Part shown: one piece after another, positions 8,955 through 12,902 of the stretch | How the letters are laid out: every line of letters begins with the position of its first letter | Numbering within the stretch: position 1 is the stretch's first letter | Source: a bacterium | Lineage (GTDB): Bacteria > Patescibacteriota > Saccharimonadia > Saccharimonadales > UBA4665 | NCBI GenBank assembly: GCA_021848145.1 | Contig: JAJZMX010000004.1 | Location: 1-64,000, forward strand | DNA: 64,000 nucleotides | Direction: 5' to 3' | Made by a program: the position numbers and the translations under genes | Notes under the pieces: generated by a model | What the model was told of the DNA's origin: nothing | The model's database searches: none | Seen by the model: the letters and a program-made list of their open reading frames with translations, nothing else

Positions 8955-9440
8955 GTGCGCGAAGTGAAGTGCAACAAATGCCATAGCGACGACATAAAAG
9001 TTATAGAGTCGCGTGACGTGGCAGACGGCCAAGCTATTCGTCGCCGCCGAATGTGTAATGCATGCGGATATCGCTTTACTACTTACGAGCGGATTGAGCG
9101 ACCGCAACTTATCGTTATCAAGCATGACGGTACCAGGCAGCTCTTTAGTAGGGAAAAGCTTCTAGGTGGCTTGTATAAGGCCTGCGAGAAGACTCCTGTA
9201 ACGAGTGTTCAACTGGAGCAGATGGTAACCGATATTGAAGATAGTTTGTATGCTTGTGGTGAGCAAGAAGTAAGATCAGCCGTTATAGGCGACTTAGTTA
9301 TGCAGCGCCTGAGTATGCTCAATGAAGTTGCATACGTAAGGTTTGCGAGCGTTTATAGACGCTTCAAAGATATTGCCAGTTTTGAAAAAGAGCTGACACA
9401 CATTCGACAGCAGAATCGTTTGCAGAAATCTGCTAGTTAG
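8955..9440 (+). CDS. nrdR: Transcriptional repressor NrdR
   Basis: CNKCHSDDIKVIESRD...RRRRMCNACGYRFTTYERIERPQLIVIKHDGTRQLFSREKLLGG (Zn ribbon plus ATP cone). Confidence 0.96.
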   Translation: MREVKCNKCHSDDIKVIESRDVADGQAIRRRRMCNACGYRFTTYERIERPQLIVIKHDGTRQLFSREKLLGGLYKACEKTPVTSVQLEQMVTDIEDSLYACGEQEVRSAVIGDLVMQRLSMLNEVAYVRFASVYRRFKDIASFEKELTHIRQQNRLQKSAS

Positions 9441-9454
9441 ACGGATTGAAGGTT

Positions 9455-9633
9455 CCCACCGCTAAGTAACGTATTTTTATTTAGCGTAGGGAGCTTTCAG
9501 GAGTACCAAGTGGTACTCTTTGACAACTCTAACAAAAACAACTAAATATATAAAAAATAAAGAGTAGTCTTGGTTTTACTTAGGGGCAAGTGTGAGGGTC
9601 CCTAAGCCCAGACAAAACAACGAAAGGGTAAAT
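9455..9633 (+). promoter_or_regulatory. Structured leader upstream of nrdJ: three strong inverted repeats and a candidate promoter
   Basis: GTTCCCACCGCTAA...TTAGCGTAGGGAGC; GAGTACCA-AG-TGGTACTC (9501-9518); CTTAGGG (9579-9585)...CCCTAAG (9600-9606) with flanking GTCTTGG/CCAGAC; TTGACA (9520-9525), 17 nt, TAAATA (9543-9548). Confidence 0.6.
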
Positions 9634-12390
9634 ATGGGACAAGCAACCGACCTAGGGGTGGGGCGGGTATTCACCCCCGAAAAAAGCAAAGCTTATGACC
9701 TTCTAAAGTGGGAAATGAGGCATTCGCTTCTAACCAATCCTCAAACTAGCGAGGTGGTTTTTGAGCAGAAGGATATTGAATTCCCTGAGGGCTGGTCACA
9801 AAATGCAGTAAATATTGTCGCTCAAAAATATTTTAGCGGTACTCCAGGAACACCAGAGCGTGAGGATTCTCTGAGAAAGCTTATCGATAGGGTAGTAGAC
9901 ACTATAACCAGACAAGGGCTGAGCGAAGGGTATTTCAGTTCTGAAAAAATCGCCGAGGATTTTCGTGAAGAGTTAAAATACATTCTTGCAACACAGAGGG
10001 CTGCATTTAACTCTCCTGTATGGTTTAACATAGGCGTTAAGGATCGTTCCCAACAGGCTAGTGCCTGCTTTATCTTGGGCATTGAAGATACTATGACGTC
10101 TATTCTGAATTGGTATGTTGAAGAGGGTATGATCTTTAAAGGTGGGTCTGGGTCTGGGATTAACTTAAGTCCTCTTCGCTCAAGCATAGAACCCCTTGGT
10201 AAAAGTGCAGGTACTTCAAGTGGCCCCCTGAGCTTTATGCGCGGCGCAGACGCCAGTGCTGGAGCCATAAAGAGTGGCGGCAAAACTCGCCGGGCGGCAA
10301 AGATGGTCATTCTTAACGTTGACCATCCAGACATCTACGACTTTATTTGGTGTAAAGCAATAGAAGAGCGTAAAGCCAGGGATTTACAGAGTTTAGGTTG
10401 GGATATGAGTTTGGATGGTAAGGATAGCTTTTCTGTTCAGTACCAAAATGCTAACATTTCTGTTCGTGTTACAGATGAATTTATGCGTGCGGTCGAAGAT
10501 GATGAAGACTGGGATCTTAAAGCTGTTAAAAGTGGAAAAACCATCAGGACAGTAAGGGCTCGTGACCTATTTCATCAGTTTGCCGAAGCAGCATGGGAGT
10601 GTGCGGACCCTGGTATGCAGTTCGATACAGTAATTAACAAGTGGCACACCGCGCCTAAGGCAGGCAGGATCAACGGCTCAAACCCTTGTAGTGAATATAT
10701 GCATTTAGACAACTCGGCGTGTAACTTAGCAAGCCTCAATTTGTTGAAGTTCTTGAATAAGGACGGCAGTTTTATGATTGATGAGTTCAAGCATACCGTA
10801 GAGCTAATATTCACGGCTCAGGAAATTTTGGTAGGGTATAGTGAATACCCTACAGAGAAGATTACAAAGAATGCTCGTGCTTACCGCGAGCTAGGTATTG
10901 GCTATGCTAATCTAGGCGCTTTGTTAATGGCACAAGGACTACCATATGATAGCGAAGAAGGCCGTGCACAGGCAGCTGCAATAACGGCGTTGTTGACTGG
11001 TCACGCCTATTCAACTTCAGCTAAGATGGCTGCCCAAGTAGGACCATTTGCTGGCTTCAATAAAGATCGCGAAGCTATGTTACGTGTACTTAATCAACAT
11101 CGTGCAGAAGTATCCAAAATAGATCCTAGCCTTGTTAGTGAAGATTTACTCAATGCAGCTACTAACGCATGGGATGAAGCAGTAGAGCTTGGAGAAAGGT
11201 ACGGTGTCCGGAACTCTCAAGCCAGTGTGTTAGCCCCTACAGGCACAATAGGTTTAATGATGGATTGTGATACTACCGGCATTGAACCTGATCTAGGTCT
11301 AGTAAAAGTTAAGAAGTTGGTTGGTGGTGGCTCTATGAGCATTGTAAACCAAACAGTTCCTAGGGCGTTAAAAGCTCTTGGTTACAATAAGTCTCAAATC
11401 GACGATATCGTGAAGTTTATTGACGAAGAAAAGACTATTGTAGGAGCGCCACATTTTAAAGAAGAACACTTACCCGTATTCGCATGTTCAATGGGCGACA
11501 ATACCATACATTATTTAGGTCATGTTAAGATGATGGCCGCAGTACAGCCATTTATCTCAGGAGCTATATCTAAGACAGTAAATATGCCTGAGGAAGTTAC
11601 TGTTGAGGATATTGAACAACTTCACCTTGATGCCTGGAAGATGGGACTAAAGGCAATAGCTATCTACAGGGATAATTGTAAAGTTGCACAGCCTTTGTCA
11701 ATGGCTAAGAAAGATAGTGACACTAAGGACTTGTCAAAGAACGAGGAAGTCGGAAAAATAATCGTAACTGGTCCAGCTAGAAGAAAGTTGCCAAAAGTAC
11801 GAGCTAGTAAAACTTACAAGTTTCAAATTGCAGACCTTGATGGTTACTTTACGGTTGGTGAATACGAAGATGGAAAACCGGGCGAACTGTTTATTAACGT
11901 AAGCAAACAGGGTAGCACACTTCGTGGACTGATGGACTCTTTCGCTATTTCGGTTAGCTTAGGGTTGCAATATGGGGTTCCTCTAAAGCACTATGTGCGT
12001 ATCTTAAGAGGTACATCTTTTGCCCCAGCAGGAATGACTGACGATAACGAAATTAAGACCGCCAGCTCCATAACAGACTACATCCTTAGGCGTTTGGCAT
12101 TAGATTACCTAAGCTTCGATGATCGTCTCGAGCTTGGTCTAGCGGATTTGGAAGACATGGTTCAGTTAGAGACTCAAACTACTCTTATAGAGTCCGCGCA
12201 ACCAGATAAAGAAACTATTCAAGCTGCACAAGAGGAAGTTTCATTGAATGAATTAGACGAATACGGAGAGCCAAAGGTTGTTGTCAGTGACCATTCTGCT
12301 CCACTTTGCTACAACTGTGGCAATATGACCCAACGCTCAGGCAGTTGTTATGTTTGCACCTCATGTGGGAGTACGACAGGCTGCAGCTAG
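9634..12390 (+). CDS. nrdJ: Vitamin B12-dependent (class II) ribonucleotide reductase
   Basis: AAFNSPVWFNIG, GSNPCSEYMHLDNSACNLASLNL, ATNAW...APTGTIGLMMDCDTTGIEP; C-terminal CYNCGNMTQRSGSCYVCTSCGSTTGCS. ATG at 9634 (GAAAGGG RBS) preferred over GTG 9592, which lies inside a hairpin. Confidence 0.93.
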   Translation: MGQATDLGVGRVFTPEKSKAYDLLKWEMRHSLLTNPQTSEVVFEQKDIEFPEGWSQNAVNIVAQKYFSGTPGTPEREDSLRKLIDRVVDTITRQGLSEGYFSSEKIAEDFREELKYILATQRAAFNSPVWFNIGVKDRSQQASACFILGIEDTMTSILNWYVEEGMIFKGGSGSGINLSPLRSSIEPLGKSAGTSSGPLSFMRGADASAGAIKSGGKTRRAAKMVILNVDHPDIYDFIWCKAIEERKARDLQSLGWDMSLDGKDSFSVQYQNANISVRVTDEFMRAVEDDEDWDLKAVKSGKTIRTVRARDLFHQFAEAAWECADPGMQFDTVINKWHTAPKAGRINGSNPCSEYMHLDNSACNLASLNLLKFLNKDGSFMIDEFKHTVELIFTAQEILVGYSEYPTEKITKNARAYRELGIGYANLGALLMAQGLPYDSEEGRAQAAAITALLTGHAYSTSAKMAAQVGPFAGFNKDREAMLRVLNQHRAEVSKIDPSLVSEDLLNAATNAWDEAVELGERYGVRNSQASVLAPTGTIGLMMDCDTTGIEPDLGLVKVKKLVGGGSMSIVNQTVPRALKALGYNKSQIDDIVKFIDEEKTIVGAPHFKEEHLPVFACSMGDNTIHYLGHVKMMAAVQPFISGAISKTVNMPEEVTVEDIEQLHLDAWKMGLKAIAIYRDNCKVAQPLSMAKKDSDTKDLSKNEEVGKIIVTGPARRKLPKVRASKTYKFQIADLDGYFTVGEYEDGKPGELFINVSKQGSTLRGLMDSFAISVSLGLQYGVPLKHYVRILRGTSFAPAGMTDDNEIKTASSITDYILRRLALDYLSFDDRLELGLADLEDMVQLETQTTLIESAQPDKETIQAAQEEVSLNELDEYGEPKVVVSDHSAPLCYNCGNMTQRSGSCYVCTSCGSTTGCS

Positions 12391-12412: not shown

Positions 12413-12688
12413 ATGAAAGTGCTTGTGCTATATAGACCACGGTCCGAACATCGGGCCGTGGTTGAGGATTTTCTACGTGCCTTTAATGGTCAGCATGCTT
12501 CTGTTAAAGTTGATGTTCTAGATGTTGATGGTATGGAGGGATCAACTATAGCATCTACATATGACTTTATGAACTTTCCGGTCATTGCAGTCATTAGGGA
12601 CGACGGAAGCATACTGCAAAGTTGGCAAGGTGTAGATAGTTTTCCAAGCCCCGGTGACGTTAGCTATTTTGCGAGTTCTCAGTTCTAA
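12413..12688 (+). CDS. Small thioredoxin-fold-like protein lacking cysteines
   Basis: 91 aa; pattern VLVLYRP...VKVDVLDVDG...TYDFMNFPVIAVIRDDGSILQSWQG resembles a thioredoxin fold (FPVIAV) with no CXXC. Confidence 0.55.
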   Translation: MKVLVLYRPRSEHRAVVEDFLRAFNGQHASVKVDVLDVDGMEGSTIASTYDFMNFPVIAVIRDDGSILQSWQGVDSFPSPGDVSYFASSQF

Positions 12689-12714
12689 GTGTTATATTAG
12701 ATAGGTTAAAATAT

Positions 12715-12902
12715 ATCCGTTTGAGCAGTTATCCGCTGCGATGGATCGGGAAGAAACATCTCTAGATGGAGTAGAACCCGTCGGGAAGGCTCCGTAACAG
12801 CCTCAAATAAAGTGCTTTTGAGACAATAACCTCAAAGGAAATCGGATGGTACCGTCCTTAATTGGATTCCGATAACCTTTGAGGTTTTATTTACTTAAGG
12901 AG
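12715..12902 (+). promoter_or_regulatory. T-box leader upstream of ileS
   Basis: T-box core TGGTACCG (12847-12854); antiterminator/antisequestrator ATCGGA[TGGTACC]GTCC-TTAATT-GGAT-TCCGAT; CTCAAA/TTTGAG stem upstream; placed directly before ileS. Confidence 0.88.

Follow-up and report, generated by a model that had tools for sequence, protein, structure and literature searches.

The window, by which we mean the whole stretch of 64,000 nucleotides analysed here, belongs to the genome of a Saccharibacterium and carries on its forward strand the isoleucine-tRNA ligase gene ileS (Table 1), which is 57-79% identical to the ileS of 80 relatives, most of them labelled Saccharibacteria. The genomes compared are mostly metagenome assemblies, and that of the window (G000) is 97.8% complete. 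Directly upstream of the ileS leader lie nrdR and then a vitamin B12-dependent ribonucleotide reductase gene (8955-12390). A frame of 91 aa (12413-12688) is found between the reductase gene and the leader; searches of Pfam and NCBIfam gave no match to it, and it appears thioredoxin/glutaredoxin-like, judged by eye only. A weak promoter-like site would place the transcript start just 5' of the leader's first stem, 1.3 such sites being expected by chance in the region.

Table 1. Features of the ileS leader in the window (helix names as published: A1, basal, and A2, apical helix of the antiterminator)
Feature	Positions	Strand	Basis or remark
Promoter-like TTGCGA-18-TATATT, TG before second hexamer	12669-12698	+	9/12 matches; weak
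Stem I, ultrashort	12715-12746	+	sequence
Stem I base helix, AUCC/GGAU	12715-12718/12743-12746	+	sequence
Stem I K-turn-like GA/GA	12723-12724/12740-12741	+	sequence
Stem I upper helix, 4 bp, GCAG/CUGC	12725-12728/12736-12739	+	sequence and covariation
Specifier codon AUC (Ile), apical loop of Stem I	12731-12733	+	invariant, 45 aligned leaders
Stem II	12747-12780	+	CGGG 12747-12750/CCCG 12777-12780; S-turn strands AAGAA 12751-12755, AGUAGA 12770-12775
Stem IIA/B H-type pseudoknot	12781-12802	+	CGG 12782-12784/CCG 12792-12794; GGCU 12788-12791/AGCC 12799-12802
Purine string AAGUG, RRRxG motif 5' of Stem III	12810-12814	+	motif as in PMC7583486
Stem III (antitermination state)	12815-12838	+	CUUUUGAG 12815-12822 with CUCAAAGG 12831-12838
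Terminator 5' strand AACCUCAAAGG	12828-12838	+	12831-12838 common to Stem III 3' strand
3' flank of Stem III, AA	12839-12840	+	
Antiterminator ATCGGA-[UGGUACC]-GUCC-UUAAUU-GGAU-UCCGAU	12841-12873	+	pairing perfect
Antiterminator helix A1	12841-12846/12868-12873	+	
T-box bulge UGGUACC between A1 and A2	12847-12853	+	
Antiterminator helix A2	12854-12857/12864-12867	+	bulge-side G-U pair 12854/12867
Anti-SD strand UCCUUAA	12855-12861	+	present; not conserved, most likely chance
Terminator 3' strand CCUUUGAGGUU	12876-12886	+	perfect 11-bp complement of 12828-12838
U-run UUUUAUUU	12885-12892	+	closes predicted intrinsic terminator
Shine-Dalgarno AAGGAG of ileS	12897-12902	+	sequence
ileS, isoleucine-tRNA ligase, 965 aa	12914-15811	+	TIGR00392, 800 bits (cut-off 621)

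Anatomy of the leader

Judged from its sequence, the leader 5' of ileS is a T-box with a class III layout and isoleucine specificity. An earlier note on this DNA had recognised an ileS T-box with the core TGGTACC, a well-formed antisequestrator and a Stem I unlike the long form; core and antiterminator are found exactly where that note had placed them, and Stem I is indeed short, as in Actinobacteria. Two ATC triplets, at about 12730 and 12743, had been offered as candidate specifiers. The first holds as the AUC within the 7-nt apical loop (UUAUCCG) of a Stem I without an IDTM, whereas the second, an AUC at about 12745, falls in the strand of the Stem I base and Stem II, outside any loop, and was discarded.

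The alignment of 45 leaders supports this anatomy. No leader departs from A, T and C at the specifier or from UGG in the bulge, 33 of the 37 pairs in the T-box helices show changes on both sides, and 84% of the helix cells are paired compared with 69% in shuffles and 31-51% in slid controls. The upper helix of Stem I is paired in 99.4% of cases with double-sided changes at 4/4 pairs, and helix IIA in 97.8%; furthermore, the IIA/B pseudoknot of relatives outscores shuffles by a clear margin, ranking first of 21 in 18 of the 45 leaders (2 expected). The window holds an additional copy of CCUCAAA upstream of Stem III (12801-12807), similar in L001 and absent from most relatives, which in the minimum-energy fold could pair with the Stem III 5' strand when this is released in the OFF state.

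The Rfam check that the note recommended gave a divided answer: RF00230 matches 12711-12874 with an E-value of 8.6e-7, but the score of 37.3 bits lies far under the gathering cut-off of 93 bits, and thus a standard annotation scan reports nothing at the ileS leader. This cut-off is a curation threshold suiting members with a long Stem I and corresponds to no structural feature. An ileS T-box of class III fetched from Actinobacteria scores just 31.9 bits, and fetched Firmicutes ileS leaders reach 107-146 bits versus 37 bits in the window. The features that mark a T-box, a UGGN bulge between A1 and A2 and a specifier matching the gene, are both present, and the leader is the sole T-box match in a scan of the whole genome.

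The expected partner, tRNA-Ile(GAU), was not found in the window assembly among the best 30 of 43 tRNA matches and three more, the rest being mostly of Leu/Ser/Tyr length. Neither the 16S gene nor tRNA-Ala(UGC) was found in this assembly, tRNA-Ala having been sought among the tRNA loci scanned; thus the assembly probably lacks the rRNA region. A search of relatives with a tRNA-Ile word of guessed sequence, an approximate query, gave no match. In the related single-contig genome G465, tRNA-Ile(GAU) ends in A-CCA, the exact partner of the bulge UGGU.

Stem III and the predicted terminator

An 11-bp helix, absent from the earlier note, pairs 12828-12838 with 12876-12886, encloses the antiterminator and is followed by the U-run. 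Its 5' strand is made of the Stem III 3' strand together with part of the Stem III loop. In 77 leaders the terminator duplex has a mean energy of -17.5 kcal/mol with the leader's own strands and -10.0 kcal/mol with swapped ones (z -19.5), and in a 30-sequence alignment 94.7% of this helix is paired, 12 of its 13 pairs have changed on both sides, and slid controls give 44-64%; Stem III covaries less strongly than the terminator. TTTT occurs within 45 nt of A1 in 75/77 leaders compared with 17% of random stretches.

Folding the leaders as RNAs of increasing length indicates an exchange of strands. When the RNA ends at A1, Stem III is formed in 72/77 leaders; when the 3' strand is included, the terminator forms in 70/77, with A1 retained in every one of these 70. 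Thus, by these predictions, Stem III and the terminator appear to be mutually exclusive, while the antiterminator and the terminator appear compatible. The window RNA up to 12873 folds into Stem III and the antiterminator at -18.0 kcal/mol, and 15 bases more, up to 12888, yield the terminator with the antiterminator intact inside it at -27.9 kcal/mol.

In many relatives the terminator stem is A/U-rich, and its "loop" of 37 nt holds the whole antiterminator, features that count against the predicted termination. Hairpin-plus-U sites of the simple kind show no enrichment in this part of the window, with 17 versus 15 expected. At intergenic U-runs of the clade, hairpins are found upstream in 52 cases versus 13 downstream, and therefore intrinsic termination seems to be used in the clade. 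A few leaders (L007, L049, L053 and L006) do not have the Stem III-terminator design. The T-box of L007 (1784-2001) is one without a terminator; it has TCCGGC close to the antiterminator, a possible partner of GCCGGA immediately ahead of the Shine-Dalgarno sequence (SD), and from its sequence it may be translational.

Published transcriptional T-boxes use the 3' strands of both antiterminator helices, A1 and A2, as the terminator 5' strand, which makes terminator and antiterminator exclusive (PMC10907184). The same arrangement is seen in the fetched ileS leaders of Sutcliffiella, Acetoanaerobium and Paenibacillus; topology was assigned by eye there, since automatic detection had put the A1 3' strand in the wrong place in two Firmicutes controls. 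This classical arrangement also gives the stronger signal in the wider set of other Patescibacteria (own -13.3 versus -10.8, z -8.1, compared with z -2.5 for Stem III), and a few Saccharibacteria, for example L058 and L080, resemble it. As an explanation of the saccharibacterial leaders we nevertheless regard it as unlikely: there the pairing of the antiterminator with downstream sequence gives a slight signal (z -2.9) against z -19.5 for that of Stem III, and in the window the two amount to -7.4 and -16.9 kcal/mol, respectively.

Proposed pairing with the Shine-Dalgarno sequence

The earlier note had proposed control of translation, in which the OFF state would pair UCCUUAA (12855-12861) with UUAAGGA (12895-12901) and hide the SD, and a tRNA-stabilised antisequestrator would free it. 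The complementarity is exact, with the coordinates and the overlap with AAGGAG that the note had given, and both pairings do share the GUCC strand of A2, as it had stated. Furthermore, translational T-boxes typically have a short Stem I (PMC7583486), and the class III ileS leaders fetched from the actinobacteria Tsukamurella and Microbacterium, whose T-boxes are also detected by the model built here, show no U-run. In 54 leaders having the T-box near ileS, we paired the loop/A2 region in turn with the SD region of the same leader and with SD regions taken from the other leaders. The mean energy is -5.85 kcal/mol for own pairs and -5.80 kcal/mol for swapped ones, and the anti-SD strand is therefore not conserved, the very outcome that the note had named as refuting its proposal; a perfect loop/SD run of at least 7 occurs in 2.5% of swapped pairs and in 2/54 leaders, the window among them. 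Thus, the complementarity of TCCTTAA and TTAAGGA in the window is most plausibly a chance match, made easier by the plain SD motif.

The position of the T-box points the same way. At about 25 of the 79 ileS loci with a match it lies 240-1200 nt upstream of ileS, most of them with other reading frames between, and thus it cannot touch the ileS SD; such distant T-boxes fit transcription control of an operon better than control of one SD. The Stem III-terminator arrangement is also present where other frames separate T-box and gene. Where tested, these frames encode methyladenine glycosylase, GNAT acetyltransferases, short-chain dehydrogenase, weak cupin matches or nothing recognised; in L036, L063, L057, L029, L075, L049, L032 and L044 the small genes between T-box and ileS differ, as if the site takes up passengers.

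In the full-length fold of the window the UCCUUAA strand stays within A2, and a strong predicted terminator with a conserved U-run is found in place of SD-hiding, which we consider very improbable indeed. A combination of both levels, in which the leader would terminate transcription and the chance anti-SD pairing would add some translational control on the read-through RNA of this species only, has in its favour that the 7-nt complementarity is present in the window genome and that only A2 would need opening. With an anti-SD pairing that is not conserved and A2 folded in both predicted states, this combination is very improbable too.

Distribution in Patescibacteria

The model built here places a T-box before ileS in 79/80 of the relatives' loci; two loci not labelled Saccharibacteria score weakly (L079, 37.6 bits; L077, 23.8 bits). 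It finds a match in at least 261 of 393 genomes of the order and in at least 102 of 287 genomes of the phylum, in which RF00230 reaches an E-value of 0.001 in 94 genomes and its cut-off in 9. We further collected 70 loci (L102-L171) from the phylum-wide hits beyond the strongest saccharibacterial ones, a few of which (L105, L128) fall in the window's own order or class. The main downstream frame is a synthetase in all but two (35 ileS, 24 valS, 5 aspS, and tyrS, lysS, thrS and leuS once each), the first gene in the two exceptions being one for an NAD(P)H-hydrate dehydratase, and most of these T-boxes stay under Rfam's cut-off.

The specifiers match the genes in these other Patescibacteria, with GUC before valS, GAC before aspS, UAC before tyrS and ACC before thrS; a crude hairpin finder locates AUC in the loop of 24 ileS leaders and, for valS, GUC in the loop of 17 leaders, with a single cross-over in each direction. 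In two Patescibacteria (L127, L165) genes for NAD(P)H-hydrate dehydratase (yjeF C-terminal) stand directly behind T-boxes. The valS or ileS T-boxes of L113, L121, L123, L124, L126 and L154 are directly followed by a small self-contained hairpin and a U-run.

Discussion

In the present study we have analysed the ileS leader of a Saccharibacterium, which very likely acts as a transcription-attenuating T-box of class III with Stem III as its switch helix. Comparison and folding provide the parts of this switch, their conservation and covariation, and their mutual exclusion in silico.

The aptamer resembles the class III ileS T-boxes of Actinobacteria (Nocardia farcinica, Mycobacterium), sharing with them a short Stem I without the elbow-binding module, AUC in the apical loop, an S-turn Stem II, a IIA/B pseudoknot, the purine string at Stem III, an antiterminator-type discriminator and the ileS target (PMC10482949). 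By sequence it thus has the structural marks of this class, although not its output, since the actinobacterial members are published as translational and the saccharibacterial leaders carry a conserved predicted terminator. With the transcriptional class I/II T-boxes of Firmicutes (RF00230) they share a tRNA-gated intrinsic terminator before a synthetase gene, which in Saccharibacteria is predicted; however, the Firmicutes members have a long Stem I with an IDTM and take the terminator 5' strand from A1/A2 (PMC10907184, PMC7583486), whereas here Stem I is ultrashort and that strand comes from Stem III. The ileS T-box of Mycobacterium tuberculosis likewise has a pre-formed antisequestrator before the decision, and charged tRNA loosens its linker; its output is SD sequestration, and the sections of PMC10907184 available to us describe no strand exchange with Stem III.

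We propose that Stem I, through AUC, would capture tRNA-Ile(GAU) together with Stem II and the pseudoknot, and that Stem III and the antiterminator would fold once transcribed. With uncharged tRNA, the ACCA end would pair with UGGU of the bulge and Stem III would be locked closed by means of the flanking purine strings (PMC7583486); the late strand could then not invade it, and RNA polymerase would read through into ileS. With charged or absent tRNA, the newly made strand 12876-12886 would invade Stem III from its loop and capture the Stem III 3' strand, with formation of a long terminator hairpin around the still-folded antiterminator and ending in the U-run. In this mechanism the switch helix would be Stem III and not A1/A2. 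We infer the binding of tRNA, the sensing of its charge, the toehold-like invasion and termination itself from this arrangement of parts. Since stability favours the terminator by about 10 kcal/mol, the choice between ON and OFF must be kinetic. Furthermore, both A1 and A2 persist in the OFF form and might bind uncharged tRNA there too, so that either kinetics or the contacts of Stem III must set the decision.

This probably represents a new switch design, in which Stem III acts as the antiterminator helix and its 3' strand is common to a terminator enclosing intact A1/A2, placed on a class III aptamer hitherto known as translational; it would be the standard control of ileS in Saccharibacteria and belong to a broader set of patescibacterial synthetase T-boxes, most of it unannotated. 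In the open literature searched, many subscription papers being outside its scope, a Stem III strand-exchange terminator is not described for T-boxes, and no relevant paper joins T-boxes with Saccharibacteria, CPR, Patescibacteria or Parcubacteria. Annotation misses these RNAs because their Rfam score is far below the cut-off and because simple hairpin scanners skip a terminator loop of 37 structured nucleotides.

According to reviews, transcriptional T-boxes need a long Stem I for timely capture of the tRNA, and short ones act on translation (PMC7583486). The saccharibacterial set appears to break this rule, and a short aptamer in a transcriptional switch that would be decided kinetically is an interesting case. 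The role of Stem III has been called unclear (PMC6197855), and it would here gain a direct part as the switching helix. Finally, little is known of the control of expression in Patescibacteria, for which inducible systems are wanted (PMC11665869), and the leader described here would supply a natural, predicted amino-acid-responsive switch in these bacteria.
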